Source of the DNA: Actinocorallia populi
GTDB taxonomy: Bacteria; Actinomycetota; Actinomycetes; Streptosporangiales; Streptosporangiaceae
DNA: 64,000 nucleotides
Assembly (NCBI RefSeq): GCF_002995495.1
Contig: NZ_PVZV01000005.1
Coordinates: 496,001-560,000 of the forward strand
Direction: 5' to 3'
Shown: positions 22,114-48,210 of the stretch, in pieces
Position numbering within the stretch: position 1 is the stretch's first letter
Layout: each line of letters starts with the position of its first letter
Translations under genes and position numbers: made by a program
The notes under the pieces: model-generated
Databases searched by the model: none
Seen by the model: only the letters and a program-made list of their open reading frames with translations
What the model was told of the DNA's origin: nothing

Positions 22114-22130
22114 CTCCCGTTCATCGGGAG
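22114..22130. promoter_or_regulatory. 17-bp palindrome A (candidate IclR operator) before the Liv operon
   Basis: CTCCCGTTCATCGGGAG; with the flanking C and G the arms reach 7 bp (22113-22131). It is one of at least seven copies matching YTCCC-N6-C-GGGAR in the ring A/B region. It lies 86 nt upstream of the binding-protein ATG. Confidence 0.75.
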
Positions 22131-22300
22131 GGGCTTATATGCATGACATCGCCCAACCCGGTGCAGTGGTCGTTGTGGCCGAAAGGGCAGGCGGTCGGAG
22201 CCGCCTGTGCCGCGGTGCGTACGGCGGCATCGCGCACAAGGAGACGACCGTGACCTCGGCTGGGGACTGGCCGACGGTCAGAGAACTCTGTGATGTAGGT

Positions 22301-22317
22301 CTCCCAGTGAGCGGGAG
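22301..22317. promoter_or_regulatory. 17-bp palindrome B (candidate IclR operator) before hsaD
   Basis: CTCCCAGTGAGCGGGAG, 71 nt upstream of the hsaD ATG. The 22029-22388 intergenic region is 360 nt, contains sites A and B, and otherwise shows no gene. It serves two divergent promoters. Confidence 0.75.
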
Positions 22318-22388
22318 AGGGGGAGGTCAGGGGCCTTGGTGCGCACCTAGGTTCCGGATAAGCCACCCCGAGGAAGCCGAGGAGCCCC

Positions 22389-23258
22389 ATGACAAGGGAG
22401 CCGACCTACGAATCGACACTGCGCGAGCTCGCCACCGACCAGGGTGTGCTGCGTTACCACGAGGCCGGCGAGGGGCCGCCTCTGCTGTTCCTGCACGGTT
22501 CGGGGCCGGGAGTCACCGGCTGGCGCAATTTCCGCGGCAACCTCGCCCGGTTCGCCGAGCACTTTCGGTGCCTGGTCCTGGAGTTCCCCGGGTTCGGGGT
22601 GAGCGACCCGACCGACCAGCATCCGATGCTCGCCGCCTCCGGCGCCGTCGTCCGGTTCCTCGACGGGCTCGGGCTGACCCAGGTCGACGTGATCGGCAAC
22701 TCGATGGGCGGCATCGTCGGCGCCCAGGTGGCGCTGGCCCACCCCGACCGGGTGCGCCGCCTGGTCACCGTGGGGGGCATCGGGCGCGGCATCTTCAGCC
22801 CGGCTCCCGGCGAGGGCATCAAGCTGCTGATGGAGTTCACCGACGACCCCAGCCGCGAGAAGCTGGTCCGCTGGCTGCACTCCATGGTCTACGACCCCGC
22901 CCTGGTGACCGAGGAGCTGATCGAGGAGCGCTGGACGCAGGCCACCGACCCCGAGACCCTGGCCGCCGCCCGCCGCATGTACGGCAGCGCCGCGATGACG
23001 GCGGCGCTGAAGGCCGCCGAGACGGCCGACACCCCGCCCTACTGGGCGATGCTGCACAAGCTCAGGGCCAGGACCCTGATCACCTGGGGCCGCGACGACC
23101 GGGTCAGCCCCGTCGACATGGCGCTGCTGCCCATGCGCACCATCCGCGACGTCGAGGTGCACGTCTTCCCCGACTGCGGACACTGGGTGATGATCGAGCA
23201 GAAGGACGCCTGGGAGAGCGTCGTACTCGCCTTCCTGACCCGCGAGGACACGGCCTGA
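22389..23258 (+). CDS. hsaD: Meta-cleavage product hydrolase, HsaD-like
   Basis: A 289-residue alpha/beta hydrolase. The nucleophile elbow GNSMGG holds Ser105; Asp237 (WGRDD) and His265 (DCGHW) complete the triad. The oxyanion region is LHGSGPGVTGW, as in BphD/MhpC/HsaD enzymes that hydrolyse a C-C bond after ring cleavage. In steroid degradation HsaD splits 4,9-DSHA into HIP and 2-hydroxyhexa-2,4-dienoate. It is first in an operon with hsaA, hsaC and kshA1, preceded by palindrome B. GAGGAAGCCGAGGAG precedes the ATG. Confidence 0.93.
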   Translation: MTREPTYESTLRELATDQGVLRYHEAGEGPPLLFLHGSGPGVTGWRNFRGNLARFAEHFRCLVLEFPGFGVSDPTDQHPMLAASGAVVRFLDGLGLTQVDVIGNSMGGIVGAQVALAHPDRVRRLVTVGGIGRGIFSPAPGEGIKLLMEFTDDPSREKLVRWLHSMVYDPALVTEELIEERWTQATDPETLAAARRMYGSAAMTAALKAAETADTPPYWAMLHKLRARTLITWGRDDRVSPVDMALLPMRTIRDVEVHVFPDCGHWVMIEQKDAWESVVLAFLTREDTA

Positions 23259-23343
23259 GCACGACCGCGCCCGCACCCGCCTGGAGCGGGCCCACCCCGA
23301 AACCGGCCGCGCGGCCGGAGCGAACCCCACGGGAGACACGAGG

Positions 23344-24528
23344 ATGACCGAAAGCGTCCTGGACAGGATCATGGAGCATGCCGAGGAGATCGCCGCCCTC
23401 GGACCGGTGAACGAGCAGCTGGGCAGGCTGGACGACAAGGCCGCCAAGGTGCTGCGCGACTCCGGCATGATCCGGATGCTGCAGCCGAAGACGCACGGCG
23501 GGCTGGAGACCCATCCCCGCGAGTTCGCCGAGGCGGTCATGGCGATCGCCGCGAAGGACGGCTCCGCCGGCTGGGTCGCCGGGATCGTCGGCGTGCACCC
23601 CTGGGAGATGGCGCTGGCCGACCCGAAGGTGCAGGAGGAGATCTGGGGCGAGGACCAGGACACCTGGATCGCCTCCCCCTACGCCCCGATGGGCGTGGCC
23701 CGCCCCGTCGACGGCGGTTACGTCTTCAACGGCCGCTGGCAGTTCTCGTCCGGCACCGACCACTGCGACTGGATCTTCCTGGGCGGCATGCTCGGCGACA
23801 GGGACGGCAACGTCGCCCAGCCGCCCACCGGCCTGCACCTGATCCTGCCGCGCTCCGACTACGAGATCGTCGAGGGCTCCTGGGAGGTCGCCGGGCTCAA
23901 GGGCACCGGCAGCAAGGACATCATCGTCCGCGACGCCTTCGTCCCCGACTACCGGGCCATCGAGTTCGGCAAGGTCATCGACGGTTCCGCGGTCGCCGCG
24001 TCGGGGCACACCAACCCGCTCTACCACCTGCCGTTCTCCTGCGCCTTCCCGCTGGGCATCACCTCCGCGGTGATCGGCATGGCCGAGGGCGCGCTGGCGC
24101 TGGGCCTGGCCTACCAGCGGGGGCGGACGCAGATCACCGGCACGAAGGTCAAGGACGACCCGTACATGCTCACCGCGATCAGCGAGGCCGCCGAGGAGAT
24201 CGCCACCTCCCGCAGCCGGTTCCTGGACAACGTGTGCCGGACGTACGACAAGGTCGCCGCCGGGAAGCAGATCACCTTCGGCGAGCGCGCCGCCGGCCGG
24301 CGCGTCCAGGTCCGGGCGGCCTGGCGGGCCGCGCACGCGACGACCGAGATCGTCATGCGCTCGGGCGGCAACGCCCTGCGGCTCGACAACCCGATCCAGC
24401 GGGCCTGGCGCGACGTGCACATGGGCCTGGCCCACGCCATCCACGTGCCCGGCCCCGTCTACCACGTCTCCGCGCTGACCGACCTGGACATCGAGCCGCC
24501 GCTGGGACCGCTCCGTTCGATGATCTGA
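23344..24528 (+). CDS. hsaA: 3-HSA flavin-dependent hydroxylase oxygenase subunit, HsaA
   Basis: A 394-residue member of the acyl-CoA-dehydrogenase-fold group D flavin monooxygenases, the same length as Mycobacterium HsaA. Characteristic parts are MIRMLQPKTHGGLETHP near the N-terminus, NGRWQFSSGTDHCDW in the beta domain, and RSGGNALRLDNPIQRAWRD near the C-terminus. With reduced flavin from HsaB it hydroxylates the phenolic ring of 3-HSA to the catechol 3,4-DHSA. No hsaB gene is in the window, so the reductase must be encoded elsewhere. A GC-rich 85-nt gap separates it from hsaD. Confidence 0.93.
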   Translation: MTESVLDRIMEHAEEIAALGPVNEQLGRLDDKAAKVLRDSGMIRMLQPKTHGGLETHPREFAEAVMAIAAKDGSAGWVAGIVGVHPWEMALADPKVQEEIWGEDQDTWIASPYAPMGVARPVDGGYVFNGRWQFSSGTDHCDWIFLGGMLGDRDGNVAQPPTGLHLILPRSDYEIVEGSWEVAGLKGTGSKDIIVRDAFVPDYRAIEFGKVIDGSAVAASGHTNPLYHLPFSCAFPLGITSAVIGMAEGALALGLAYQRGRTQITGTKVKDDPYMLTAISEAAEEIATSRSRFLDNVCRTYDKVAAGKQITFGERAAGRRVQVRAAWRAAHATTEIVMRSGGNALRLDNPIQRAWRDVHMGLAHAIHVPGPVYHVSALTDLDIEPPLGPLRSMI

Positions 24529-24530
24529 AC

Positions 24531-24561
24531 CCCGCTTCCCGCTGGACGGGAGGCGGGTTTT
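24531..24561 (+). terminator. Hairpin with T-tract between hsaA and hsaC; also matches the 17-bp palindrome
   Basis: Arms 24531-24541 and 24547-24557 pair with one G-T mismatch and are followed by TTTT, so it looks like an intrinsic (partial) terminator. The core 24536-24552, TTCCCGCTGGACGGGAG, also fits YTCCC-N6-C-GGGAR. Whether it acts as RNA, as a protein site, or both is open. Confidence 0.6.
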
Positions 24562-24588
24562 CCAGGAGAAGAAGAAAGAGGAGGAGCG

Positions 24589-25509
24589 ATGACGCATATC
24601 AAGGGACTCGGCTACCTGCGGGTCCAGGCGAGCGACCTGGCGCGCTGGCGCGAGCTGGCGCTCGAGGGCCTCGGCTTCGCCGAGGGCTCGGGCCCGGATT
24701 CCGACGGCCTCTACCTGCGCATGGACGAGCGCAGGTACCGGCTCGCGGTCCTGCCCGGGGACGTCGACCGGGTACTGGCCGTCGGCTGGGAGGTACGCGA
24801 CCAGTACGCGTTGGCCGCCGTCCGCGAGGCGGTCGAGAAGGCCGGCGTCGAGGTCACCGCCCTTTCCCCGGCGGAGGCCACCGCCCTGGACGTCGAGCAG
24901 GCCATCGCCTTCAAGGACCCGGCGGGCACCCCCGTGGAGGTGTTCTTCGGCCCGGTCCTGGACCACAGCCCGCTGCGGACGGGCCTCGCCCAGAAGTTCG
25001 TCACGGGCGAGCAGGGCATGGGCCACGTCGTCATCCCCGCCCTGCAGCAGGAGGAGACCCTCGCCTTCTACGCCGAGGTCCTCGGCTTCCTGCCGCGCGG
25101 CGCCATGAAGGTCGCCGAGGTCGCCCCGGGCCACCACGTGCGGGTCCGCTTCCTCGGCGTCAACCGGCGCCACCACAGCCTGGCCGTCTGCCCCGCCCCG
25201 TTCACGGGCGACCCCGGCCTGGTGCACCTGATGGTGGAGGTCGACACCCTGGACGCGGTGGGCCGCGCCCTGGACAACGTGAACAAGCAGGGCTTCTCGC
25301 TCTCGTCCACGCTGGGCCGCCACACCAACGACAAGATGGTGTCCTTCTACGTTCGGGCCCCCGGCGGCTGGGACATCGAGTACGGCTGCGAGGGCATGCT
25401 CGTCGACGAGACGCACTACACGGCCGAGGAGATCACCGCCGACAGCTACTGGGGCCACGACTGGTCCGGCTCCGAACCTCTGGCGGCGTTCACCCCTCCG
25501 GGGGCTTGA
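24589..25509 (+). CDS. hsaC: Extradiol dioxygenase, 3,4-DHSA dioxygenase HsaC
   Basis: A 306-residue type-I (vicinal oxygen chelate) extradiol dioxygenase with two repeated domains. The Fe(II) ligands in the C-terminal domain are His146 (GMGHVV), His213 (GLVHLM) and Glu264 (WDIEYG). His195 and His245 (GRHTND) are the expected active-site helpers. HsaC meta-cleaves the catechol 3,4-DHSA to 4,9-DSHA, the HsaD substrate. The ATG follows GAGGAGGAGCG. It is third in the hsaD-hsaA-hsaC-kshA1 operon. Confidence 0.94.
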   Translation: MTHIKGLGYLRVQASDLARWRELALEGLGFAEGSGPDSDGLYLRMDERRYRLAVLPGDVDRVLAVGWEVRDQYALAAVREAVEKAGVEVTALSPAEATALDVEQAIAFKDPAGTPVEVFFGPVLDHSPLRTGLAQKFVTGEQGMGHVVIPALQQEETLAFYAEVLGFLPRGAMKVAEVAPGHHVRVRFLGVNRRHHSLAVCPAPFTGDPGLVHLMVEVDTLDAVGRALDNVNKQGFSLSSTLGRHTNDKMVSFYVRAPGGWDIEYGCEGMLVDETHYTAEEITADSYWGHDWSGSEPLAAFTPPGA

Positions 25510-25548
25510 CCGCCCTCCGCTCCTCCCACCCCGATCACAGGAGTTCTC

Positions 25549-26727
25549 ATGAACGAGGTACGAACCGAAGGAGACACCGAGGTCCGTGTGATCGAGGCGG
25601 CGGCGCCCCCCGCGCGTTACGCGCGGGGGTGGCACTGCCTCGGCCTGATCGAGCATTTCAACGACGGCAAGCCGCATGCGGTGGAGGCGTTCGGCACCAA
25701 GCTGGTGGTGTTCGCCGACACCAGCGGCAAGCTGAACACCCTCAACGGCTACTGCCCCCACATGGGCGGAGACCTCTCCCAGGGAGAGGTGAAGGGCGAC
25801 GAGGTCGCCTGCCCGTTCCACGACTGGCGCTGGTCGGGTAACGGCCGGTGCGCGAAGATCCCTTACGCCCGGCGTGTGCCGCCGCGGGCCCGCACCAAGT
25901 CGTGGCCGGTGCTGGAGCGCAACGGCCAGCTCTATGTTTGGAACGATCCGCAGGGCAATCCGCCTCCGCCTGAGGTGACGATCCCGGAGATCGAGCAGTT
26001 CGGGTCGCCGGAGTGGACGTCGTTCACGTGGAACCGGTTGTTGATCGAGGGGTCGCACTGCCGGGAGATCGTCGACAACGTCGTGGACATGGCGCACTTC
26101 TTCTACATCCATTACTCGTTCCCGACGTTCTTCAAGAACGTCTTCGAGGGCCACGTCGCCTGGCAGTACATGAACGGCCAGTCCAGGCCCGACGTGAACC
26201 TGGGAACGAACTACGCCGGTGAGAAGACGCACAACGTGTCCGAGGCCGCCTACTACGGCCCGTCCTACATGATCAACCCGATGAAGACGGTCGGGGAGGG
26301 CTACACGATCGAGACGGTCCTCATCAACTGCCACTATCCGGTGTCGCCGACCAGCTTCGTGCTCCAGTGGGGCGTGATGGTCAAGAAGGTCGAGGGCATG
26401 AGCGATCAGGATGCCGAGCAGTTCGCGCTCGACTTCGCCTCGGGTGTGGAGACGGGTTTCCTGCAGGACGTGGAGATCTGGAAGAACAAGGCCAAGATCG
26501 ACAACCCGCTGCTGTGCGAGGAGGACGGCCCGGTCTACCAGCTGCGCCGCTGGTACGAGCAGTTCTACGTGGACGTCGAGGACGTCACGCCGGAGATGGT
26601 CAACCGGTTCGAGTTCGAGATCGACACCGACCGGGCCAGGGAGTTCTGGCTGAAGGAGGTCGAGGAGAACCTCGCCGCCGGCCGGGTCGTCGGCGACGTC
26701 GACCTCAAGGCGCCGATCCGCGCCTGA
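25549..26727 (+). CDS. kshA: 3-ketosteroid 9-alpha-hydroxylase oxygenase KshA (copy 1)
   Basis: A 392-residue Rieske non-haem iron oxygenase. The 2Fe-2S ligands are Cys69, His71, Cys88 and His91 (C-x-H-x16-C-x2-H). The mononuclear iron ligands are His183, His188 and Asp307, in NVVDMAHFFYIH and GFLQDVEIW, as in Mycobacterium KshA. With reductase KshB it hydroxylates C9 of 1,4-androstadiene-3,17-dione-type substrates and causes ring B opening. It is the last gene of the hsa operon. Most of it is nearly identical in DNA to kshA2 at 44786, but the substrate-lobe segment around residues 216-260 differs. Confidence 0.95.
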   Translation: MNEVRTEGDTEVRVIEAAAPPARYARGWHCLGLIEHFNDGKPHAVEAFGTKLVVFADTSGKLNTLNGYCPHMGGDLSQGEVKGDEVACPFHDWRWSGNGRCAKIPYARRVPPRARTKSWPVLERNGQLYVWNDPQGNPPPPEVTIPEIEQFGSPEWTSFTWNRLLIEGSHCREIVDNVVDMAHFFYIHYSFPTFFKNVFEGHVAWQYMNGQSRPDVNLGTNYAGEKTHNVSEAAYYGPSYMINPMKTVGEGYTIETVLINCHYPVSPTSFVLQWGVMVKKVEGMSDQDAEQFALDFASGVETGFLQDVEIWKNKAKIDNPLLCEEDGPVYQLRRWYEQFYVDVEDVTPEMVNRFEFEIDTDRAREFWLKEVEENLAAGRVVGDVDLKAPIRA

Positions 26728-26856: not shown

Positions 26857-28527
26857 TCAGTCCGCGGCGGGGTGCGCCGCGGCGTGCCGCATGGCGGTGT
26901 AGGCGAACGCCATCGCGGGACCGATGGTGGCGCCCGCGCCGGCGTACTCGTTGCCCATCACCGAGGCCGAGGCGTTGCCGGTGGCGTAGAGCCCTTCGAT
27001 CGTGCTGCCGTCAGGGCGCAGGACACGGCCGTGCTCGTCGCTGAGGAGGCCGCCCTTGGTGCCGAGGTCGCCCGCCTCGATCCGGATCGCGTAGTACGGT
27101 CCGGGGCCGATCTCGTCGAGGTTGGGGTTGGGCAGCGTCGGGTCGCCGTAGTAGTGGTCGTACCTGCTGTCCCCGCGGCCGAAGTCCTCGTCGCGGCCGT
27201 TGCGCGCGAACACGTTGAACCGGTCGACCGTCGCCTGCAGGGCGTCGGCCGGGACCTTGATCCGCTCGGCGAGCCCGGCCAGGGTGTCGGCCCTGGCGAC
27301 CAGACCCGAGGTGTAGTAGTCCTTCGGGAAGGGCTGGCCGGGCATGATGCCCGCGAACTGGTACCGGGCGCGGGCCTTGGCGTCGAGGATCTCGTAGGCG
27401 GGCACGTGGCCCCCCTCGAGCTGGGCGTGGACGAAGTTGACGTAGGGGGCGGCCTCGTTGGTGAACCGCTCGCCCTTCTGGTTCACGATCACCATGGGGG
27501 GGATGCAGCGCTCGGTCACCAGGGGGAAGATGCTCCCGCTGGGCCGCTTGATGGACGGCATCCACCAGGCGTCGTCCATGAGGTCCAGGGCGGCCCCGGC
27601 CTCCTCGCCGATCCGGATGCCGTCGCCGACGTTGGCGGCGGCGCCCGCGCTGTAGTCGTCCCGGCCCAGCTCGGGAAGGTATCTCTTGCGCATCTCCGGG
27701 TCGTGGTCGAAACCGCCGGTGGCGATCAGGACGCCGTGCCGCGCCCTGACCCTGACCGGCCGCCCGTCGCGTTCGACGACCGCCCCGACGACCCGGCCGT
27801 CCTCCACGACCAGCTCGGTGATCGGCGCTTTCAGCCACAGCGGGATGCCCAGGTCCTTCATCGTCAGGCGCAGCCGGACGGCGAGCGAGGCGCCCAGCGT
27901 CTTCATGTGGCGGCGGCGGAACAGGTTGCTGACCACGCGCCAGGCCGCGACGCGGATCATCCACTTGCCCGACCAGGTGCGCCGGACGAGCATGAGTTTG
28001 CGCCCCTCGGAGCCGGTGAACCACAGGCCCATCGGCGAGGGGAGGCTGGCGGGGAGGAGGTGCTTCTCGTCCTCGCCCAGGAGCTTGGCGTCGATCGGGA
28101 GCGGCTCGATCGTGCGGCCGCGCGGGCGGCCGCCCGGCAGTTCGGGGTGGTAGTCGGAGTAGTCGGGGCACCAGGCGAAGTCCATGTGGCGGCTCACCCG
28201 GTACAGCATCTCCAGCGCCTTGGGGCCCTCCTCGACATAGGCGTCCAAACGGTCGGGGGACACCCGGTCGCCCACGACCTCCTGGAGGTAGCGGCGGACG
28301 TCGGCGGGGTCGTCGCCGCGGCCTATGGCCTTGAGGGTGGGGTTGTTGGGCATCCAGATGCCGCCCCCGGACAGCGCGGTGGAGCCGCCGAAGAACGCGG
28401 CCTTCTCCACTAGCAGCGCCGAGAGCCCGGCGTCGTGGGCGGCGATGGCGCCGGTCATGCCGCCGGCGCCGCTGCCGGCGATGAGAACGTCGACCTCGTG
28501 GTCCCAGGCGGGAGGGCTGGACGTCAT
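26857..28527 (-). CDS. kstD: 3-ketosteroid delta1-dehydrogenase KstD
   Basis: A 556-residue FAD flavoprotein. The dinucleotide motif GSGAGGMTGA starts at residue 18. Tyr126, Tyr362, Tyr528 and Gly532 (NEYAGAGATIGPA) fit the catalytic tyrosines and glycine known from Rhodococcus KstD1 (Tyr119, Tyr318, Tyr487, Gly491, from memory). It introduces the 1(2) double bond in ring A of 3-ketosteroids, the step that with KshAB opens ring B. It lies downstream of an IclR gene (75-nt gap) and is probably co-transcribed with it from palindrome C. It converges with kshA1. Confidence 0.94.
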   Translation of the reverse strand: MTSSPPAWDHEVDVLIAGSGAGGMTGAIAAHDAGLSALLVEKAAFFGGSTALSGGGIWMPNNPTLKAIGRGDDPADVRRYLQEVVGDRVSPDRLDAYVEEGPKALEMLYRVSRHMDFAWCPDYSDYHPELPGGRPRGRTIEPLPIDAKLLGEDEKHLLPASLPSPMGLWFTGSEGRKLMLVRRTWSGKWMIRVAAWRVVSNLFRRRHMKTLGASLAVRLRLTMKDLGIPLWLKAPITELVVEDGRVVGAVVERDGRPVRVRARHGVLIATGGFDHDPEMRKRYLPELGRDDYSAGAAANVGDGIRIGEEAGAALDLMDDAWWMPSIKRPSGSIFPLVTERCIPPMVIVNQKGERFTNEAAPYVNFVHAQLEGGHVPAYEILDAKARARYQFAGIMPGQPFPKDYYTSGLVARADTLAGLAERIKVPADALQATVDRFNVFARNGRDEDFGRGDSRYDHYYGDPTLPNPNLDEIGPGPYYAIRIEAGDLGTKGGLLSDEHGRVLRPDGSTIEGLYATGNASASVMGNEYAGAGATIGPAMAFAYTAMRHAAAHPAAD

Positions 28528-28602: not shown

Positions 28603-29457
28603 TCAGAACCAGTCGGTCAGGCGGGGCCAGGTGGCCCAGGCGTCCAGCGTTCCGGCGGGCCAGTCGCCCGGTGCGGGGGCGTCGGCGACGCGCGGGGCGG
28701 GTTTGGGGGCGCCCAGCCCGACCGCGCGCCAGATGCGCAGTGCCCCCTGCTGGACGGCGGGCGCCAGCCGGGCGAAGTCGAGCTGGCGGACGGGTCCGCA
28801 CACCGACAGCGCCGCGACCGCCTTGCCCGGCCCGCGCACCGCGGCGGCGACGCACCCGACGCCCCGCATCGCCTCCTCGCGGTCGAACGCCACGCCTCGC
28901 TCCCGGATCCGCCGCAGCTCGCGGACGAACTGGGCGGGATCGGTGATCGTGAAACGCGTGCGCGCCCGCAGCCCGCCGTCGAGCACCTCCTGCACGGCCT
29001 CCGCGTCGGCGTAGGCGAGGATCGCCTTGCCCACCCCGGTGCAGTGCGCGGGCGCGCGCCCGCCGATCCGGGACGGCAGGTCCACGTTCGGCGGGTTCCC
29101 GATCTTCTCCAGGTAGACGATCTCCATGCCGTCGAGCACCGCCAGGTGGACGATCTGCTTGCTGGAGGCGTACAGCTGGCGCATCACGGGCAGCGCCGCG
29201 TCGTGCAGGGTGTCCTGCTGGAGGGCCAGCGATCCCAGCTCCAGCATGCGGATGCCGAGCCGGTAGTCGTTGCCCTCCCGCGAGAGCCAGCGGACCGCGA
29301 CGAGCTGGTCCAGGATGCGGTGCACCGAGGAGCGCGGCAGCCCGGTGCGCTGGACCACCTGGGCCAGGGAGAGCCGGGCGACCCCGTCGAAGGCGTCGAG
29401 GACGTGCACGACCCGCTCGATCATCGACACCGGAGCGCCGTCTGAGCTGTCAGCCAT
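28603..29457 (-). CDS. IclR-family regulator 1 (candidate ring A/B regulator)
   Basis: A 284-residue IclR protein. The N-terminal winged helix-turn-helix spans about residues 12-70 (LSLAQVVQRTGLPRSSVHRIL), followed by the IclR effector domain (CTGVGKAILAY, GVGCVAAAVRGPGKAVAALSVCGP). A proline-rich C-terminal tail ends WATWPRLTDWF and is shared with the second IclR protein at 47339. The ATG at 29457 lies 76 nt from palindrome C. It sits upstream of kstD in the same direction. Inference: it binds the 17-bp palindromes and senses a steroid catabolite. Confidence 0.9.
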   Translation of the reverse strand: MADSSDGAPVSMIERVVHVLDAFDGVARLSLAQVVQRTGLPRSSVHRILDQLVAVRWLSREGNDYRLGIRMLELGSLALQQDTLHDAALPVMRQLYASSKQIVHLAVLDGMEIVYLEKIGNPPNVDLPSRIGGRAPAHCTGVGKAILAYADAEAVQEVLDGGLRARTRFTITDPAQFVRELRRIRERGVAFDREEAMRGVGCVAAAVRGPGKAVAALSVCGPVRQLDFARLAPAVQQGALRIWRAVGLGAPKPAPRVADAPAPGDWPAGTLDAWATWPRLTDWF

Positions 29458-29532: not shown

Positions 29533-29549
29533 TTCCCACTGGCCGGGAG
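29533..29549. promoter_or_regulatory. 17-bp palindrome C before the IclR1-kstD operon
   Basis: TTCCCACTGGCCGGGAG, 76 nt upstream of the IclR1 start and 36 nt beyond the stop of the GH1 gene, so it most likely serves IclR1-kstD. Confidence 0.7.
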
Positions 29550-29585: not shown

Positions 29586-30845
29586 TCAGAAGGACGCGCC
29601 GTTGCTCCGTGCGATGTCGCCGAGCCAACCGAGACTCGGTTTGGGAGCGCGCTCGAAGGTGACGCGGTCGACCGCGATGAGGCCGAACGTCATGGCATAT
29701 CCGGAATGCCATTCGAAGTTGTCCAGCAGGCTCCAGTGCAGGTAACCGAGGACGTCGACACCCTCCTTGAGGCACTCCGCCAAGCCGCGGAGAGCCGAGG
29801 CCGTGTACTCGATGCGCTGTGCGTCGTCGGCTGTGGCCATGCCGTTCTCGGTGACGAGCACGGGTACCCGCGCCACCCGGGCGGCCAGACGGACCGAGTT
29901 GCCCAGGGCCTGCGGGTACATCTCCCAACCGGTCTGGAATTTGGGGGTCTCCTCGGGGACCGGCACCCGGCCCTCGGGGCCGAGGACTTCGCGGGTATAG
30001 GTCTGCACGCCCACGAAGTCGTCCTCCCGCGACACCAGCAGGAAGTCTTCCAGGGACTTCTCGCGTACCAGGCCGGCGATCCCCTCACCGCCCGGGATCG
30101 TCTGGAAGTCCGGTATCGCGAGGGTCCAGCCGACCTTCGCCGAAGGGTCCACCCGCTTGACGGCGTCGCGGCCCCGGCGGTGCGCCTCCATGAGATGGGT
30201 GATCCCCTCTGCGGAGGTGGCGGGGTTGCCGAGCGTCGCGGTGCGCTCGTCCCCGCCGATCCGGGCGGCGAACGCGCGCACGGCCTCGGGGTCGGGCCGC
30301 TCCACCACCCCCAGCTCTTCGAGGGAGGCCATGGGGATGGTGCCGCCCATGGAGAGCATCGCGCCGAGGTTGGGTTCGTTGAGCGTGCAGTACCACGGGA
30401 CGGCACCTCCCATATGGGTGGCGACGGCCTCGCAGTAGCGCGCGAACCTGCCGGGGGATTCGGGGTTGTTCCAGGCGCCGTCCCGGGCGAGCCATGCGGG
30501 CACGGTGAAGTGGTTGAGCGTGACCACCGGGGTCACTCCGGCCTCGTGGCAGGCCTGGACCACGTGCAGGTAGTGATCCAGCTCGGCACGGGAGAACACG
30601 CCGGGTTCGGGCTCGATCCGGGACCATTCCACGCTGAACCGGTAAGTGTCCAGGCCGGCCTGCGCCAGCAGCGCGATGTCCTCGGCGAAGCGGTGATAGC
30701 TGTCGCAGGCGTCTCCGGAGGGCTCGGTGAACGGTGAGCGGGGCACGTGCTCCATCGCCCAGTGGTCGCTGAGCGTGTTGTTGCCCTCGATCTGGTGTCC
30801 CGCGGTCGAGGCTCCCCAGAGGAAGCCTTCGGGGAAGTTCGTCAT
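29586..30845 (-). CDS. GH1 beta-glucosidase-like glycoside hydrolase
   Basis: A 419-residue GH1 enzyme. FLWGASTAGHQIEGNN is the N-terminal GH1 signature, TLNEP holds the acid/base Glu157, and VTENG the nucleophile Glu333. HWSLLDNFEWHSGY is the usual aglycone-side motif. It is shorter than many GH1 proteins (about 450) because loops are reduced, and no signal peptide is present. It follows the DHA2-type MFS gene in the same direction with a hairpin between them. Its position among kstD, IclR1 and the delta4-dehydrogenase suggests a steroid or triterpenoid glucoside as substrate. This is inference; ordinary glucosides cannot be excluded. Confidence 0.9.
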   Translation of the reverse strand: MTNFPEGFLWGASTAGHQIEGNNTLSDHWAMEHVPRSPFTEPSGDACDSYHRFAEDIALLAQAGLDTYRFSVEWSRIEPEPGVFSRAELDHYLHVVQACHEAGVTPVVTLNHFTVPAWLARDGAWNNPESPGRFARYCEAVATHMGGAVPWYCTLNEPNLGAMLSMGGTIPMASLEELGVVERPDPEAVRAFAARIGGDERTATLGNPATSAEGITHLMEAHRRGRDAVKRVDPSAKVGWTLAIPDFQTIPGGEGIAGLVREKSLEDFLLVSREDDFVGVQTYTREVLGPEGRVPVPEETPKFQTGWEMYPQALGNSVRLAARVARVPVLVTENGMATADDAQRIEYTASALRGLAECLKEGVDVLGYLHWSLLDNFEWHSGYAMTFGLIAVDRVTFERAPKPSLGWLGDIARSNGASF

Positions 30846-30940: not shown

Positions 30941-32401
30941 TCAGGCGGCCGCCTGACCGGTCTCGGCTTCGTCGAGGCGCTTCACCTTGGGGATCAGCGC
31001 GATGGAGAGCAGTCCTGCCAGGAAGAAGCCGGCGGCCAGGAGGAAGGCGTTGGTGTATCCGGCGTCGAGGTAGAACTGCGTGCCCTGCATGACCGTGCCG
31101 TTCTGGGAGAGGACGACGAAGATCAGCTGGGTCACCAGGGACAGGAGGACGCCCTGGAGCATGCCCTGCATGCCGTTGGCGCGGGCCTGCTCGGCGGGGG
31201 AGACCACCTCGATGACCAGGACGGGGACGAGGGCGGCGATCAGGCCGATGCCGACCGCGCTCAGCATGCCGACGACCATCAGCTGCGTCACGGTGTGGTG
31301 GAACTGCGAGAGGAGCGCGTGCCCGGCGGCGGAGGACAGCGCTCCGGCGGCCAGCAGGATCCGGGTGTCGAAGCGCCGGGCGAGGGCGCCGGCCGTCACG
31401 GCCACCACGATGATCAGGACGCTCGCGGGGGCGCCGATGAGGGCGACCTTGGTGGCGGTGAAGCCCAGGCCGTCGGAGACGGTGGGGATCTTCGGCATCA
31501 GGCCGAGGAGCTGGTTGACCGTCCCGGCGGCGAAGGCCGTCCCGGCCAGCAGCGAGGTGGTGAGGAACACCGTCCAGACGGGGCGGCGCGCCAGCATCGA
31601 CAGCTCGTACAGCGGGTGGGGGCTCCTGCTCTCGGCGATCACGAAGAGGACGAGGGCCAGGAGGCCGCCGCCGACGAACGCCAGGGTCCGGCCGCCGGTC
31701 CAACCCCACTCGGTGCCCTTGCCGATGCCGTAGAGAACCGCGGTGAGGCCGCCGCCCAAGAGCAGGCCGCCGAGCCAGTCGACGGGCGTGCGCTCACCGC
31801 GGACGGGGCTCTCGGGCACGAAGGCCAGCAGGAGGACCAGGCTCAGCGCGGTGGCCGCCACCAGGAACCACAGCACCCCGCGGAACCCGAAGCCGTCCAG
31901 GAGCCAGCCGGACAGGAACGGGCCGCCGAGCGCCACCAGACCGACCCCGCCGCCGATGAACCCGCTGGCCGGCCCGACGAGGCGGGGAGGGAACACGTCG
32001 CGGGCGATGGCGTAGACGAGCGCCACGATGGGGGCGTAGAAGCCGGCCACCGCCCGGCCGACGAGGAGCATCGGGTAGTCCGCGGCGAGCGCGGCGACCA
32101 GGTCGCCGACGAGGCCGAGCACGGTGAGGGCCACCATGACGCGCTTCTTGCCGTACAGGTCGGCCGCCTTCAGCACGAAGGGCGTGATGAAGCTGCCGAC
32201 CAGTGCCGTGACCAGGGTGAACCAGGCTATCTGCGTGGTCTGGAAGTGCACGGCTATCTCGGCCTGGGCGTTGCCCGCCAGCAGGCCGATGACCGACAGG
32301 AGCTGGGCCGACCACAGGAGCGAGACCAGGATCAGGGCCGTACGCGCGCCGAAGCCGGAACCGCCCGCCCCGCGTCGAGGGGAGGTCGCGGTAGGGGTCA
32401 T
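30941..32401 (-). CDS. MFS transporter, DHA2-like
   Basis: A 486-residue protein with about 14 hydrophobic segments, as in the DHA2 drug:H+ antiporter group. ADLYGKKRV is the loop 2-3 motif and GRAVAGFYAPIVALVYAIARD fits the helix 4-5 region. It is divergent from the delta4-dehydrogenase gene and shares its 253-nt intergenic region, including palindrome D. Exporting or importing a steroid or a steroid glycoside is plausible; the direction cannot be read from the sequence. GAGGAG precedes the ATG. Confidence 0.88.
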   Translation of the reverse strand: MTPTATSPRRGAGGSGFGARTALILVSLLWSAQLLSVIGLLAGNAQAEIAVHFQTTQIAWFTLVTALVGSFITPFVLKAADLYGKKRVMVALTVLGLVGDLVAALAADYPMLLVGRAVAGFYAPIVALVYAIARDVFPPRLVGPASGFIGGGVGLVALGGPFLSGWLLDGFGFRGVLWFLVAATALSLVLLLAFVPESPVRGERTPVDWLGGLLLGGGLTAVLYGIGKGTEWGWTGGRTLAFVGGGLLALVLFVIAESRSPHPLYELSMLARRPVWTVFLTTSLLAGTAFAAGTVNQLLGLMPKIPTVSDGLGFTATKVALIGAPASVLIIVVAVTAGALARRFDTRILLAAGALSSAAGHALLSQFHHTVTQLMVVGMLSAVGIGLIAALVPVLVIEVVSPAEQARANGMQGMLQGVLLSLVTQLIFVVLSQNGTVMQGTQFYLDAGYTNAFLLAAGFFLAGLLSIALIPKVKRLDEAETGQAAA

Positions 32402-32534: not shown

Positions 32535-32551
32535 CTCCCGCCCACCGGGAA
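32535..32551. promoter_or_regulatory. 17-bp palindrome D between MFS and delta4-dehydrogenase genes
   Basis: CTCCCGCCCACCGGGAA, 103 nt upstream of the 32655 start and 133 nt upstream of the MFS start. The same region holds a TTAAAACCGAG segment at about 32450-32460 that resembles one half of the palindrome at 11945. Confidence 0.68.
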
Positions 32552-32654
32552 ATCGGGGTTTCGGGGAAGCGCGCCTCTTCCTACGCTGACCGCGCTGACG
32601 CCCCGGGGGCGCGGCAGCGCGGACGGAGAGAACGGCCATCGAGGAGAGACGCCC

Positions 32655-38842: not shown

Positions 38843-38909
38843 GAGGCTCCTGAGAACGTCGAGTGGGGGGGATGCGGCGGGGACGGCCGCGGTGTGCTCG
38901 GCAGGAGTG

Positions 38910-38923
38910 TTAAAACGTTTTAA
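38910..38923. promoter_or_regulatory. LacI-type palindromic operator before the GH106-like gene
   Basis: TTAAAACGTTTTAA is a perfect 14-bp palindrome centred on CG, the usual form of LacI/GalR operators. It is conspicuously A+T-rich here. No lacI gene is in the window, so its regulator is elsewhere. Confidence 0.72.
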
Positions 38924-39035
38924 TCTCTGCGTCCAAGCTGGACGATAAATGTGATCCGGAACACCCGTCAAGTGAAAACAGAGATGTACTCGGTTTTTGG
39001 GTCCCCCGGCGAGGGGGAGCGGGGCTCTGGTCTTC

Positions 39036-39506
39036 TCACGTCGGGAACGAGGCGCGGAGGGACCGGGCGAAGCGGCCGAGGAGGCCGCCCAGCCGGTCGA
39101 CGTCGTCTTCGGGCCAGTCCTTCAGCAGTTCGCCGAGCATCTCGACGCTCGTCCTGTCGATCAGTTCGGCGGTGCGGTGGCCCTCGCCGGTCAGGACGAT
39201 GGAGACGGCCCTCAGGTCGTCCGGTTCGGCCGCGCGCTCGACGAGGCCGGCGCGCGTCATGCGTGCCAGCACCTTGCTGACGTTGGAGGCACTGGTGCGC
39301 GTCGCCTGCGCCAGGTGGGAGGGGCGGGCGGCACCTCCCGTGCGCCGCAGTTCGAGCAGCAGGGTCATCGACGCGGCGTCGGCGTCGACCCCCGCGCGCT
39401 CGAGGATGAGATCGGCCATGCCCACGGCCGTCCACCTGCCGATGATCAGGCTGAAGGCCTCGAGCACCCGGCCGAGGTTCTGATCCTGGTCCTTCTCCGA
39501 AGTCAT
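39036..39506 (-). CDS. MarR-family transcriptional regulator
   Basis: A 156-residue winged-helix regulator. PSHLAQATRTSASNVSKVLARMTRAGLVER forms the recognition helices and DLRAVSIVLTGEGHR the wing. It is divergent from the SMP-30-SDR-P450 operon. A palindrome at 39570-39586 lies 64 nt from its start and is a likely binding site. MarR proteins typically respond to aromatic or hydrophobic acids. Confidence 0.88.
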   Translation of the reverse strand: MTSEKDQDQNLGRVLEAFSLIIGRWTAVGMADLILERAGVDADAASMTLLLELRRTGGAARPSHLAQATRTSASNVSKVLARMTRAGLVERAAEPDDLRAVSIVLTGEGHRTAELIDRTSVEMLGELLKDWPEDDVDRLGGLLGRFARSLRASFPT

Positions 39507-43887: not shown

Positions 43888-44415
43888 TCAAGCCGATCCC
43901 GCATTCCCGTTGGCGGTCGTCCCGCTGACCGGGCGGCCGGCGAGAACGGTCTCACCGCCCTCGGGGAAGCGCGGGAGGGCGTCCATGAAGTCGATGACGA
44001 CCTCGAGCGAGCGGAGGACGGGACGGCGGGGGCCGGCCACCACGCTTCCCGAGACGATCCCCGAGGTGAGGTTCTTCGGCGCCCCGTTCACGTTCTTCGT
44101 CACGAACATGTACGAGGAGAAGCGCGTCTCCCCGTCTTCGACGCCGGTGATGTGGACGTTGGTCGCGAAGTGCCGGATCGGGAAGGGGCTGACCATGCGG
44201 TGGCTGGACTGCCACGAGACCACCGCGTCGGCGCCGGTCAGCTCGCAGCGGATGCTCTCCTCGTAGGGGGCGTCGCCGGTGTCGCTGCGGGAGGAGAAGC
44301 GCACCTCCTCGTGCAGCAGCTCGCGCAGCGTGGCGAAGTCGCCCTGGTCGTAGGCGAACCACCAGAGCGAGACCAGTTCGGTGACGTCGGCGACCGGGAT
44401 GGCTGGGGTGGGCAC
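43888..44415 (-). CDS. SnoaL/NTF2-fold protein
   Basis: A 175-residue protein with the cone-shaped NTF2/SnoaL fold (LVSLWWFAYDQGDFATLRELLHEEVRF, given in part, and HFATNVHI later). The start is GTG at 44415, placed by GGGAG at 7-nt distance. Unlike the 34969 protein it lacks the DP segment of ketosteroid isomerases, so its chemistry is unclear. A degenerate copy of the 17-bp palindrome lies 77 nt upstream. Confidence 0.8.
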   Translation of the reverse strand: MPTPAIPVADVTELVSLWWFAYDQGDFATLRELLHEEVRFSSRSDTGDAPYEESIRCELTGADAVVSWQSSHRMVSPFPIRHFATNVHITGVEDGETRFSSYMFVTKNVNGAPKNLTSGIVSGSVVAGPRRPVLRSLEVVIDFMDALPRFPEGGETVLAGRPVSGTTANGNAGSA

Positions 44416-44491
44416 GAGGCATCTCCCATCGTGGTGCGGGGAACGGACCCGGCCACGGTAGGAAGGGCCGTCACCCGTCCAGAAGAGGGTT

Positions 44492-44508
44492 TCCCGGTCA
44501 TCGGCCGC
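44492..44508. promoter_or_regulatory. Degenerate copy of the 17-bp palindrome (site G)
   Basis: TTCCCGGTCATCGGCCG has a good left half and spacer (GGTCATC against GTTCATC in site A) but only three of five right-arm bases. It is correctly placed for the leftward NTF2-SDR pair. Confidence 0.4.
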
Positions 44509-44622: not shown

Positions 44623-44639
44623 CTCCCGATCAGCGGGAG
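44623..44639. promoter_or_regulatory. 17-bp palindrome F before kshA2
   Basis: CTCCCGATCAGCGGGAG, the same 17 bases as site E, 146 nt upstream of the kshA2 start. The 44416-44785 region (370 nt) has sites F and G and no visible gene. Confidence 0.76.
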
Positions 44640-44785
44640 ACCTCATGGTGAGAGCCTCGTCCGCCGCCTTAGCTTCGAAGCGGAGGGAGACCTGCCTCAC
44701 ATTCGCCCGGCGGCCCGCCGTCTGCGTCCCCGGCATATGCCGGGCCGCCCCGGACCGACATCGAATCCCGACTCTGGAGCTTTTC

Positions 44786-45964
44786 GTGACCACCCCACAG
44801 ACCGCCGGCGGCGACGGAGTCCGTGTGATCGAGGCGGCGGCGCCTCCCGCGCGTTACGCGCGGGGGTGGCACTGCCTCGGCCTGATCGAGCATTTCAACG
44901 ACGGCAAGCCGCATGCGGTGGAGGCGTTCGGCACCAAGCTGGTGGTGTTCGCCGACACCAGCGGCAAGCTGAACATCCTCAACGGCTACTGCCCCCACAT
45001 GGGCGGAGACCTCTCCCAGGGAGAAGTGAAGGGAGACGAGGTCGCCTGCCCGTTCCACGACTGGCGCTGGTCGGGTAACGGCCGGTGCGCGAAGATCCCT
45101 TACGCCCGGCGTGTGCCGCCGCGGGCGCGCACCAAGTCGTGGCCGGTGCTGGAGCGCAACGGCCAGCTCTACGTCTGGCACGACCCGCAGGGCAACCCGC
45201 CTCCACCTGAGGTGACGATCCCGGAGATCGAGCAGTTCGGGTCGCCGGAGTGGACGTCGTTCACCTGGAACCGGATGCTGATCGAGGACTCCCACTGCCG
45301 GGAGATCGTCGACAACGTCGTGGACATGGCCCACTTCTTCTACATCCACTACTCGTTCCCGACGTTCTTCAAGAACGTCTTCGAGGGCCACGTCGCCTGG
45401 CAGTACATGAACGGCCAGTCCCGGCCCGACGTGGATCTGGGGACCGGCACCTCCGACGACAAGATGAGCATCTCCGAGGCCGCCTACTACGGCCCGTCCT
45501 ACATGATCAACCCGCTGAAGAGCGTCATCGGGGACCAGACGAGGGAGAGCATCCTCATCAACTGCCACTACCCGGTGTCGCCGACCAGCTTCGTGCTCCA
45601 GTGGGGCGTGATGGTCAAGAAGATCGACGGCATGACCGACGAGGCCGCCGAGCAGTACTGCGCCGCGGTCACCAAGGCGGTGGGGACGGGCTTCCTGCAG
45701 GACGTGGAGATCTGGAAGAACAAGACCAAGATCGACAACCCGCTGCTGTGCGAGGAGGACGGCCCGGTCTACCAGCTGCGCCGCTGGTACGAGCAGTTCT
45801 ACGTCGACGTCGAGGACGTCACTCCCGAGATGACCAACCGGTTCGAGTTCGAGATCGACACCGACCGGGCCAGGGAGTACTGGCAGAAGGAGGCCGAGGA
45901 GAACCTGGCCGAAGGACGTGTGATCACGGTGACGGCACCCGCGCAGGCCGGAGCCGGCAACTGA
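44786..45964 (+). CDS. kshA: 3-ketosteroid 9-alpha-hydroxylase oxygenase KshA (copy 2)
   Basis: A 392-residue Rieske oxygenase from a GTG at 44786 (GGAG at 44775-44778). The ligands match copy 1: Cys69, His71, Cys88, His91, His183, His188 and the Asp of GFLQDVEIW. Residues 12 to about 215 are almost the same as in KshA1, also at DNA level, whereas the segment after DVDLGT (GTSDDKMSIS, then LKSVIGDQTRES) and the C-terminus differ. Copy 2 is directly upstream of the small Cys-rich gene and kshB, so it forms a complete 9-alpha-hydroxylase operon. Different steroid substrates (side chain, CoA thioester) for the two copies are likely. Confidence 0.95.
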   Translation: MTTPQTAGGDGVRVIEAAAPPARYARGWHCLGLIEHFNDGKPHAVEAFGTKLVVFADTSGKLNILNGYCPHMGGDLSQGEVKGDEVACPFHDWRWSGNGRCAKIPYARRVPPRARTKSWPVLERNGQLYVWHDPQGNPPPPEVTIPEIEQFGSPEWTSFTWNRMLIEDSHCREIVDNVVDMAHFFYIHYSFPTFFKNVFEGHVAWQYMNGQSRPDVDLGTGTSDDKMSISEAAYYGPSYMINPLKSVIGDQTRESILINCHYPVSPTSFVLQWGVMVKKIDGMTDEAAEQYCAAVTKAVGTGFLQDVEIWKNKTKIDNPLLCEEDGPVYQLRRWYEQFYVDVEDVTPEMTNRFEFEIDTDRAREYWQKEAEENLAEGRVITVTAPAQAGAGN

Positions 45965-45991: not shown

Positions 45992-46026
45992 CCCGCCTTT
46001 CGAAGATCTGAGTCGAGGAGATATCC

Positions 46027-46266
46027 GTGTACCCGGTGTCCTGCCACCGCTGTGGGACCTGCGTCCTGGTGAAGAAGAACAGTCTCGCTCACACCGAGAT
46101 CCAGTGGACCACCGAAACGGACCGGTGCGCGGAACTGGGAAAGACCGTCCGGCCGGACGTCCTGCACAGCGTCACGCCGACCTGCGAGGCGCTGCGCGAC
46201 AGCGTCGAGGCGTCCGTGCGCGGCGGGCTGCTTCCGGTTCCGGACGCCGAGGAGCGAGTCCTTTGA
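46027..46266 (+). CDS. Small Cys-rich protein between kshA and kshB (possible metal or Fe-S binder)
   Basis: A 79-residue protein, GTG start at 46027 with GAGGAG 6 nt upstream. Five cysteines: Cys6, Cys9 and Cys12 in SCHRCGTC, then Cys34 and Cys53. The spacing could bind zinc or an iron-sulfur cluster but fits no standard ferredoxin. Its stop overlaps the kshB start (TTGA), so it is made at the same level as the reductase. I do not recognise the family; an assembly or electron-transfer accessory of the 9-alpha-hydroxylase is a reasonable guess. Confidence 0.75.
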   Translation: MYPVSCHRCGTCVLVKKNSLAHTEIQWTTETDRCAELGKTVRPDVLHSVTPTCEALRDSVEASVRGGLLPVPDAEERVL

Positions 46267-47303
46267 GTGAGACCAGCGCCTGCACGCTGACGGTCCTCGA
46301 CGTCGTCGAGGAGACCGCGGACGCCCGATCACTGATCCTGGGCGTACCCGAGGAACTGGGGGACCGGTTCGACTACCGGCCCGGCCAGTTCCTCACCCTG
46401 CGCATCCCCGGAGCCGAGGGACGGGGGAGTGCCCGCTGCTACTCGCTGGCCAGCGCGCCCGGCGTCGACCCCGACCTGAAGGTCACGGTCAAACGGGTGG
46501 ACGGCGGCGTGGGATCCAACTGGATCTGCGACAACATCCGCCCCGGGCAGGCGATCGAGGTCCTGCCCCCGGCCGGGGTGTTCACGCCCGAGCGGCTGAA
46601 CGGCGACCTGCTGCTCTTCGCGGGCGGCAGCGGCATCACGCCGGTGATCTCGATCGTCAAGGCGGTGCTCGCCCAGCCGGAGGGCACGGCCGTGCTGTGC
46701 TACGCCAACCGCGACGAGTCCTCGGTGATCTTCTCGGCCGAGCTGCGCGAGCTGGTGGCCCGCGCCCCGGGCCGGCTCCAGGTGATCCACCTGCTGGAGA
46801 GCGTCCAGGGCCTGCCGACCGTGGACACCCTGACCGCCCTCGCCGCGCCCTTCGCCGGACGCGACGCGGCGTTCGTCTGCGGTCCGGCCCCGTTCATGGA
46901 GGCCGTCACCGAGGCGCTCCGCCGGGCCGGGATGCCCAAGCAGAAAATCGTCCTGGAGAGGTTCCACTCCCTGAGCGGCGACCCGTTCGCCGAACGGGAA
47001 CCGGTGCCCGAGACCGGCGACGACACCGGGACGGCACGGCTCTCGGTGACGCTGAACGGCAACGTGCACGAGTTCCGCTGGCCCGCCGAGACCAAGCTGC
47101 TGGACCTGCTGCTGGCCCGGGGGCTCAAGGCCCCCTACTCCTGCGGGGAGGGCAACTGCGCCGCGTGCTCCTGCCGGGTCGTCAGTGGAGAGGTCAAGAT
47201 GCTGGTCAACGACATCCTCGAGGAGGAGGACCTGGAGGAGGGCTGGGTACTGGGCTGCCAGAGCGTCCCGATCACCGACGAGGTCGAGATCAGCTTCGAC
47301 TGA
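46263..47303 (+). CDS. kshB: 3-ketosteroid 9-alpha-hydroxylase reductase KshB
   Basis: A 346-residue flavin reductase. The FAD domain has RCYSLASAP, the NAD domain GGSGITPV and CGPAPFM. The C-terminal plant-type 2Fe-2S domain carries Cys294, Cys299, Cys302 and Cys332 (C-x4-C-x2-C-x29-C). This domain order (FAD, NAD, Fe-S) is that of KshB. It passes electrons from NADH to KshA. The start is the TTG at 46263 overlapping the previous stop, with GAGGAG before it. No second kshB is in the window, so it probably serves both KshA copies. Confidence 0.94.
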   Translation: MSETSACTLTVLDVVEETADARSLILGVPEELGDRFDYRPGQFLTLRIPGAEGRGSARCYSLASAPGVDPDLKVTVKRVDGGVGSNWICDNIRPGQAIEVLPPAGVFTPERLNGDLLLFAGGSGITPVISIVKAVLAQPEGTAVLCYANRDESSVIFSAELRELVARAPGRLQVIHLLESVQGLPTVDTLTALAAPFAGRDAAFVCGPAPFMEAVTEALRRAGMPKQKIVLERFHSLSGDPFAEREPVPETGDDTGTARLSVTLNGNVHEFRWPAETKLLDLLLARGLKAPYSCGEGNCAACSCRVVSGEVKMLVNDILEEEDLEEGWVLGCQSVPITDEVEISFD

Positions 47304-47336
47304 CCGGACCGCCTGCGCGCGGGCACGGCGGTCCGG
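47304..47336. terminator. Hairpin terminator after kshB
   Basis: CCGGACCGCC (47304-47313) pairs with 47327-47336; 13-nt loop. It lies between convergent kshB and the second IclR gene. Confidence 0.75.
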
Positions 47337-47338
47337 CC

Positions 47339-48187
47339 TCAGAGCCAGTCGGTCATCCTGGGCCACGTGGCCCAGGAGTCGAGCGTCCCGGTCGGCCAGT
47401 CGCCGGCCGGGGCTCCCTCGGAGTCCGGAAGCGACAGGGACGGGCGGGCGTGCGTGGCGGACCAGATCCGCAGCGCCGCCTGCTGGACGGCGGGAGAGAG
47501 CCGGGTGAAGTCGAGTTGCCGGGCCGGCCCGCACACCGACAGGGCCGCCACGGCCGGGCCCGGGCCGCGGACCGCCGCGGCGACGCACGCGATGCCGCGC
47601 ACCGCCTCCTCGCGCTCGAACGCCACGCCGTGCTCGCGCACCCGCTGCAGCTCGCGGACGAACTGGGCGGGATCGGTGATCGTGAACCGGGTCCGCGCCT
47701 TGAGCCCGCCCCTGACGACCTCCCGGACGGCGTCGTCGTCGGCGTAGGCCAGGATCGCCTTGCCCACCGCGGTGCAGTAGGCCGGGGCGCGTCCGCCGAC
47801 CCGCGCGGGCGTCTCGTTCTCCATGGGTCCCTCGATCCGCTCCAGGTAGACGACCTCGGCGCCGTCCAGCACGGCGAGGCGCACGCCGTGGCGGCCCGAG
47901 GCGCTCAGCCTGCGCATGAGGGGCAGCGCGGCCTCGCGGAGCGCGTTCTGCTGCAGGGCGAGGGAGCCGAGTTCGAGCATCCGCAGGCCGAGCTGGTAGT
48001 CCCTGCCCTCCCGGGAGAGCCAGCGGACGGCCACGAGCCGCTCGAGGATGCGGTGCACCGAGGAGCGGGGCAGGCCGCTGCGGCGGACCACCTGGGAGAG
48101 GGACAGGGGGGCGGAGCCGTCGAAGGTGTCGAGGACGCGGACGACCCGGTCGATCATCGAGGTCGGAGCGGGATCGTCGCCTTCCAT
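47339..48187 (-). CDS. IclR-family regulator 2
   Basis: A 282-residue IclR protein closely similar to IclR1 along its length: LSLSQVVRRSGLPRSSVHRILE in the helix-turn-helix, CTAVGKAILAY and GIACVAAAVRGPGPAVAALS in the effector domain, and the same kind of tail ending WATWPRMTDWL. Palindrome H is just 7 nt from its start, which points to autoregulation. It is divergent from an HsaA-like gene. The two paralogues may recognise the same palindromes with different effectors. Confidence 0.9.
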   Translation of the reverse strand: MEGDDPAPTSMIDRVVRVLDTFDGSAPLSLSQVVRRSGLPRSSVHRILERLVAVRWLSREGRDYQLGLRMLELGSLALQQNALREAALPLMRRLSASGRHGVRLAVLDGAEVVYLERIEGPMENETPARVGGRAPAYCTAVGKAILAYADDDAVREVVRGGLKARTRFTITDPAQFVRELQRVREHGVAFEREEAVRGIACVAAAVRGPGPAVAALSVCGPARQLDFTRLSPAVQQAALRIWSATHARPSLSLPDSEGAPAGDWPTGTLDSWATWPRMTDWL

Positions 48188-48193
48188 GCTTTC

Positions 48194-48210
48194 TTCCTAC
48201 TCAACGGGAG
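48194..48210. promoter_or_regulatory. 17-bp palindrome H between IclR2 and hsaA-like genes
   Basis: TTCCTACTCAACGGGAG has a perfect right arm and a left arm with two changes. It lies 7 nt from the IclR2 ATG and 60 nt from the 48271 start. Confidence 0.6.

Follow-up and report, generated by a model that had tools for sequence, protein, structure and literature searches.

How are the genes that open steroid rings A and B controlled in Actinocorallia populi? The question arises from a 64,000-nucleotide stretch of contig NZ_PVZV01000005.1 (positions 496,001 to 560,000 of the forward strand, assembly GCF_002995495.1; hereafter the window, with positions counted from its first letter), in which a 17-bp palindrome, YTCCC-N7-GGGAR, recurs in a steroid cluster that also encodes two IclR-family proteins, IclR1 and IclR2. 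Judging from sequence comparisons, this palindrome is quite probably the operator of IclR-family activators (these two and a third, IclR3, encoded on another contig) at steroid genes. A preliminary description of this DNA had proposed IclR control of ring A/B degradation, and the co-occurrence of sites with IclR genes, their conservation and the contrast with KstR-type loci all support it, with binding by the IclR proteins as the presumed link.

The recurrence itself is real. The window holds eight exact matches to YTCCC-N7-GGGAR, at 22114, 22301, 24536, 29533, 32535, 34909, 44623 and 48311, against a mean of 0.83 in 100 shuffled sequences, none of which reached eight. Seven of the copies listed in the preliminary description are exact, and the 17 of 17 identity that it claimed for the sites at 34909 and 44623 was confirmed; however, its copy at 48194, the ninth in the window, has one mismatch, its degenerate copy at 44492 occupies positions 44491 to 44507, and it overlooked the perfect copy at 48311, inside hsaA2. 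Six of the eight exact copies, together with 48194, are good operator candidates.

Next to these candidates and the degenerate copy, at a gap of 30 nt, we found a -10 hexamer of the form TANNNT at 22301, 32535, 44623 and 44491, and weaker hexamers at 22114 and 34909. On the plus strand, CTCCCAGTGAGCGGGAG (22301–22317) lies 71 nt before hsaD1 and is followed by TAGGTT (22348–22353, plus strand), and CTCCCGCCCACCGGGAA (32535–32551, plus) precedes an FAD dehydrogenase gene starting at 32655, with TACGCT at 32582–32587 (plus) and a divergent transporter gene of the major facilitator superfamily (MFS) starting at 32401. The sequence CTCCCGATCAGCGGGAG occurs twice on the plus strand, at 44623–44639 before kshA2 (GTG at 44786) and kshB, with TAGCTT at 44670–44675 (plus), and at 34909–34925 before a SnoaL-like gene, where the hexamer is GAAGCT. 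On the minus strand, CTCCCGATGAACGGGAG (22114–22130) lies 85 nt upstream of a LivK-like gene (start 22028), with CAGTCT at 22078–22083 (minus) as the possible -10 of the Liv operon, and the degenerate candidate CGGCCGATGACCGGGAA (44491–44507), with TACCGT at 44455–44460, precedes a short gene without a Pfam match (43952–44422). The two remaining candidates adjoin the regulator genes: CTCCCGGCCAGTGGGAA (29533–29549, minus) lies 75 nt upstream of IclR1-kstD, and TTCCTACTCAACGGGAG (48194–48210, plus), which is followed by TAGCAT at 23 nt and TACACA at 28 nt, lies between IclR2 and hsaA2. The earlier statement that a site precedes every ring A/B unit is slightly too strong, as the P450, short-chain dehydrogenase/reductase and thiolase genes have no good site immediately in front of them.

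The two other exact copies are of a different kind. At 24536–24552 (plus strand), between hsaA1 and hsaC1, the palindrome is part of a hairpin that runs into a stretch of T, in agreement with its earlier description as terminator-like, and a -10 is missing from the usual distance; it is probably not an operator. This hairpin lies inside an operon, and attenuation is possible there. The perfect copy at 48311–48327 (plus), within the hsaA2 coding sequence (ATG at 48271), is probably incidental and likewise lacks a -10 where one would be expected.

Across the 8.25-Mb genome, the loose pattern gave 63 matches against 54 for a mirror control, so that outside the steroid cluster it is near background and says little alone. 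The matches do concentrate in the steroid cluster: eight of the 63 (including 24536 and 48311) fall within the window, which is 0.78% of the genome (binomial P = 3e-8). The tighter form YTCCCG-N5-CGGGAR had 18 genome matches against 13 in the control, six of them in the window, of which four are operator candidates; the ten that were examined comprise these six (including 24536 and 48311), one at IclR3 and three incidental ones. A consensus drawn from the sites of other loci, YTCCCRNTSANYGGGAR, matched four times in the genome, always in the window, against none in the control, but does not recover 29533, 32535 or the site on contig 15. Treating every genome match as an operator was rejected in view of the 63 against 54 matches and of the outside copies examined, which look incidental: one is in coding sequence (L190) and two lie just past stop codons (L191 and L192). 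In L192, on contig 6, the hairpin-like copy follows the stop codon of a kshA paralogue (L192:8749-9909) that is 89% identical to the window kshA1.

The preliminary description also predicted that the sites would be conserved in relatives, and they were found adjoining IclR homologues and ring A/B genes. Species genomes were scanned with an alignment of four IclR proteins, and the best 80 of 308 loci were kept; they come from Actinomadura, Thermomonospora, Streptomyces, Microtetraspora, Mycobacteriaceae, Nocardia, Rhodococcus and Jongsikchunia and include near-identical species. Perfect sites numbered 81, in 47 of these 80 loci, whereas the mirror control gave 2, permutations of the half-sites at most 28, and other spacer lengths at most 16 (spacer 11). 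In the relatives, where genes were named by tblastn with the proteins of the window, L056 and L057, the sites precede hsaA, kstD, kshA, FAD dehydrogenase, Baeyer-Villiger monooxygenase and old yellow enzyme genes, as well as LivK and iclR. Several Actinomadura sites occupy positions that match those of the window, namely at kshA/kshB, the FAD gene, iclR1, LivK and hsaA2. In loci L059 and L060, sites stand before the orthologues of the LivK gene (there without a -10 at 28–31 nt), of iclR1 and of the FAD dehydrogenase gene; before kshA or kshB they are found in L059, L060 and L063 to L065, and likewise in L061, with G as the first base, and L061 has a similar site before hsaA2. A recognition-helix pattern, PRSS-x-HR, is present in 68 of the 80 loci and unmatched in 12. 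Among the other IclR proteins of the family sample, several have PRST or PKST instead, and the pattern is no proof of specificity, as PRST proteins (L176 to L178) also adjoin such sites.

The distance between site and promoter is fixed as well. Among 108 distinct site ends that face a gene, TANNNT starts 28–31 nt past the site in 50 (4, 18, 19 and 9 cases at 28, 29, 30 and 31 nt), compared with three matches elsewhere between 10 and 59 nt; with near-duplicates removed, the counts are 24 of 69 ends against three. A further 69 ends that face no mapped gene have the hexamer at 28–31 nt in 15 cases and elsewhere in one. We trained a score matrix on 30 sites from L059 to L138, L056 and L057, without the window, and defined a composite as a matrix match with TANNNT at 28–31 nt; there were 198 composites in 79 of 83 records, a figure that includes the training data, against five on reversed sequences. 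Taking the hexamer as positions -12 to -7, the centre of the site falls between about -49 and -52, slightly upstream of the -35 region, a position that favours an activator, although the activation step is deduced from this spacing. In the composites L085:5914, L091:5982 and L118:5782 and in similar mycobacterial ones, the promoter-near half is kept as CGGGAA, with CGTCC or TGACC as the distal half. Many mycobacterial sites preserve the half next to the promoter better than the other, which looks as though the two halves were not of equal importance.

The same arrangement is found elsewhere in the genome. On contig 15, a third IclR gene (IclR3, 52% identity) is divergent from hsaA3-hsaD3-hsaC3-kstD3-kshA3-kshB3, of which kshA3 is 70% identical to kshA1 and kshB3 has 55% identity; between IclR3 and these genes lies TTCCCGGTTACCGGGAA, with TAACGT 30 nt on. 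The iclR genes lie near their presumed targets and have sites in their own promoter regions (29533, 48194 and the divergent region of IclR3). Contig 8 (L058) has another cluster for steroid ring degradation, in which a fourth IclR gene (45%) lies before relatives of hsaD, kstD, kshB, hsaA and hsaC. Its variant site, ATCCCGCTCAACGGGAT, has a -10 at 30 nt and ends in A and T (ATCCC...GGGAT).

KstR and KstR2 are TetR repressors with the operators TNNAACGTGTTNNA or AAGCAAGNNCTTGCTT (PMC8228715); they control steroid ring-degradation genes of the same kinds but differ from the system considered here in protein family and operator. A relaxed form of the published consensus, TNNAACNNGTTNNA, had no match in the window, and KstR-like operators were also absent from L056, L057 and L058; the 80 loci had two, compared with four in the control. 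Homologues of hsaC occur in 54 of 394 genomes sampled from the class. As a contrast, 20 mycobacterial-type hsaC loci were hand-picked from about 48 lower-identity matches (46–49% identical, all of family f6). Composites and perfect palindromes were absent from these loci, and every locus had at least one KstR-like operator (37 in all, against one in the mirror control). In contrast, 20 IclR-type hsaC loci had 45 composites in 16 loci, 13 perfect sites and three KstR-like operators in two loci. Five of them (L160, L161, L165, L166 and L168) are L095, L068, L129, L077 and L094 of the 80; in the loci outside the 80, composites were found in 11 of 15. The claim that control here is distinct from mycobacterial KstR control is supported by these counts, with no KstR-like sites in the window and 37 in the contrast loci. 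Low hsaC identity alone does not imply KstR control, since the contig-15 locus (45%) and genome G182 (47%) carry the palindrome.

Of the 49 hsaC-bearing loci, 23 have an IclR gene in the stretch, and a site with a -10 was present in 20 of them, compared with three of the 26 others (P = 9e-8). Three loci with an IclR-type, higher-identity hsaC (L164, L174 and L184) have no IclR gene in the stretch and no sites. One of these, L174 (G208), carries an IclR-type hsaC cluster with two KstR-like operators and no palindrome, and possibly represents a regulator swap.

Several observations weigh against an IclR-operator interpretation. In the window, the site before iclR1 (29533) has no clear -10 at 28–31 nt, the one at 48194 lacks a good one at the common distance, and the hexamers at 22114 and 34909 are weak. 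In the relatives, 33 of the 80 IclR loci have no perfect site, and four of the 83 records have no composite at all (L062, L122, L123 and L138), among them that of a 72%-identical IclR of Thermomonospora echinospora. When the 20 contrast loci are left out, the association with IclR genes falls to 20 of 23 against three of six (P = 0.08), although at a stricter score of 12 it is 19 of 23 against one of six (P = 0.005). L172 and L187 carry an IclR gene without a composite, and L176 has a perfect site without a -10; conversely, L180, L183 and L189 carry composites without an IclR gene in the stretch, although in L180 the same contig has one at a distance of about 35 kb. At the level of the 394 genomes, with the best six candidates per genome scored, the association is weak: the refined motif matched in 11 of 22 IclR-positive genomes, and was thus absent from the other 11, and in 67 of 372 IclR-negative ones (P = 0.001), compared with 4 of 22 and 52 of 372 for the mirror control (a hand count). 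The motif alone is not diagnostic of IclR in the class sample. Finally, compared by eye, YTCCC-N7-GGGAR fits neither of the main IclR motif classes, GKTYCRYW3-4RYGRAMC and TGRAACAN1-2TGTTYCA (PMC8222616), as its spacing and outer letters differ.

From the observed sites, with their spacing, conservation and co-occurrence with IclR genes, we infer IclR binding, activation and an effector. An IclR dimer or tetramer would bind the palindrome around position -50, adjoining the -35 region on its upstream side, and may recruit RNA polymerase or steady it at the promoter, with the TANNNT -10 box 28–31 nt past the site. The effector would likely be a steroid or an early ring-degradation intermediate, and the predicted regulon would comprise Liv import, ring A/B opening (kstD, kshAB, hsaA, hsaC and hsaD), the extra FAD dehydrogenase and the iclR genes themselves.

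The same sites could also serve IclR proteins that repress, or that act as dual regulators, with relief by a steroid ligand as in the case of KstR. For Rhodococcus ruber, repressors other than KstR have been proposed for kshA1 and kshA2, which have a palindrome near their promoters (PMC8228715), and the 48194 site lies only 7 nt from the iclR2 start. However, a -10 located 28–31 nt beyond the site places its centre near -50 and leaves the -35 and -10 regions free, which would be unusual for simple blocking, and we regard repression as possible but rather unlikely. It is less likely still that another regulator binds the palindrome and that IclR is a mere neighbour. The window encodes a TetR (34203–34829) and a MarR protein (39036–39506), and a TetR related to SRTF1 or KstR3 could also be considered: in Nocardioides simplex, the TetR protein SRTF1 binds a 22-bp palindrome before kstD and also upstream of SRTF2 (PMC7062782), and PMC7593942, which left the factor for the Lcin1 motif open, mentions KstR3 orthologues. 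Against this, a tblastn survey of these two window regulators found relatives of the TetR in one of the 47 perfect-site loci (L124, 35%) and of the MarR in none, and neither had relatives in the 20 IclR-type loci. The divergent promoter of IclR3, which is encoded on a different contig, also contains the site. Sites are missing from L164, L174 and L184, where an IclR-type hsaC stands without an IclR gene in the stretch, though L180, L183 and L189, which lack such a gene too, have composites.

The remaining explanation, that the copies arise from terminators, from chance in coding sequence or from the base composition of a GC-rich genome, is likely for 24536, 48311 and the outside copies in L190, L191 and L192. 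For the group as a whole this explanation, to which we give next to no weight, is refuted by the specificity for spacer 7, the 81 sites against 2 in the mirror control, the fixed -10 distance and the matching positions across species. Binding by IclR-family activators is the reading that we prefer.

The motif is already known in silico. In 2020, footprinting in N. simplex VKM Ac-2033D predicted Lcin1, TCCCGGT[C/G]ACCGGGA, before cholate-type ring-degradation operons in the lithocholate-induced cluster E, where KstR sites are also present; KR76_18060 or KR76_18605 was suggested as the factor (PMC7593942). Its consensus is the core of the window palindrome, and the same core is found in the 30 training sites; palindromes with this core precede hsa, ksh and kstD genes here. 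The word IclR is absent from the text of that paper, and its accessible part gives no promoter spacing for Lcin1. Also in N. simplex, the sterol-induced protein SRTF2 (PMC7062782) belongs to the IclR family and, like IclR1, is encoded beside kstD; no operator for it is reported in the accessible text. Among the sites listed in PMC8222616 (Table 1), the closest to YTCCC-N7-GGGAR is the IclR operator of GenR from Corynebacterium glutamicum, ATTCC-N7(5)-GGAAT, which has the same 5-N7-5 layout but controls gentisate genes and has the half-site ATTCC instead of YTCCC. No IclR operator for steroid genes was found in the literature searched, which left most subscription papers outside its scope. As far as these searches reached, four things are new: the link to IclR drawn from co-occurrence, the spacing to the promoter, the wide occurrence and the contrast with KstR.

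The genes of the window were called with NCBIfam and Pfam models. IclR1 (28603–29457, minus strand) and IclR2 (47339–48187, minus), the candidate regulators, are 71% identical, and both have HTH_IclR and IclR_C domains above the gathering score. The plus-strand operon at 22389–26727 consists of genes for an hsaD-like hydrolase (22389–23258), an hsaA1-like oxygenase (23344–24528), an hsaC1-like extradiol dioxygenase (24589–25509) and a kshA1-like Rieske oxygenase (25549–26727). HsaD, HsaA1 and HsaC1 fall below the curated Hsa cut-offs and are therefore divergent members; HsaC1 is above the 2,3-dihydroxybiphenyl dioxygenase cut-off, and KshA1 matched a distant model only. Behind IclR1 lies the kstD-like 3-ketosteroid dehydrogenase gene (26857–28527, minus). 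Other genes encode the LivK-like periplasmic binding protein (20646–22028, minus), the MFS transporter (30941–32401, minus; below curated cut-offs), the FAD dehydrogenase of the PRK07121 type (32655–34151, plus) and the SnoaL-like protein (34969–35475, plus). Further on, the plus strand carries the kshA2-like Rieske oxygenase (44786–45964, again a distant model only), the kshB-like reductase (46104–47303, matching a PaaE-type model below the curated cut-off) and hsaA2 (48271–49440), which is above its curated cut-off. A glycoside hydrolase family 1 (GH1) beta-glucosidase gene (29586–30845) and a GH106 alpha-L-rhamnosidase gene (35966–38971) lie inside the steroid cluster, a hint that its substrates may be saponin-like steroid glycosides from plants.

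The proposal is readily testable, since it names a regulator family, gives an exact operator and fixes the promoter geometry. Structures of IclR proteins exist in the PDB. The same elements could be used to build steroid biosensors and strains producing steroid drug intermediates. The finding bears on how the breakdown of bile acids and other non-sterol steroids is regulated, on which knowledge is limited (PMC8399759), and on R. ruber kshA1 and kshA2, which must have regulators other than KstR (PMC8228715). At about even odds, we propose that two interchangeable systems control hsa/ksh/kst ring opening in actinobacteria, one built on KstR, a TetR repressor, and the other on an activator of the IclR type that is widespread and acts through YTCCC-N7-GGGAR centred near -50. 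The latter would have been copied along with its operons, giving this genome at least three clusters and perhaps each class of steroids its own sensor.

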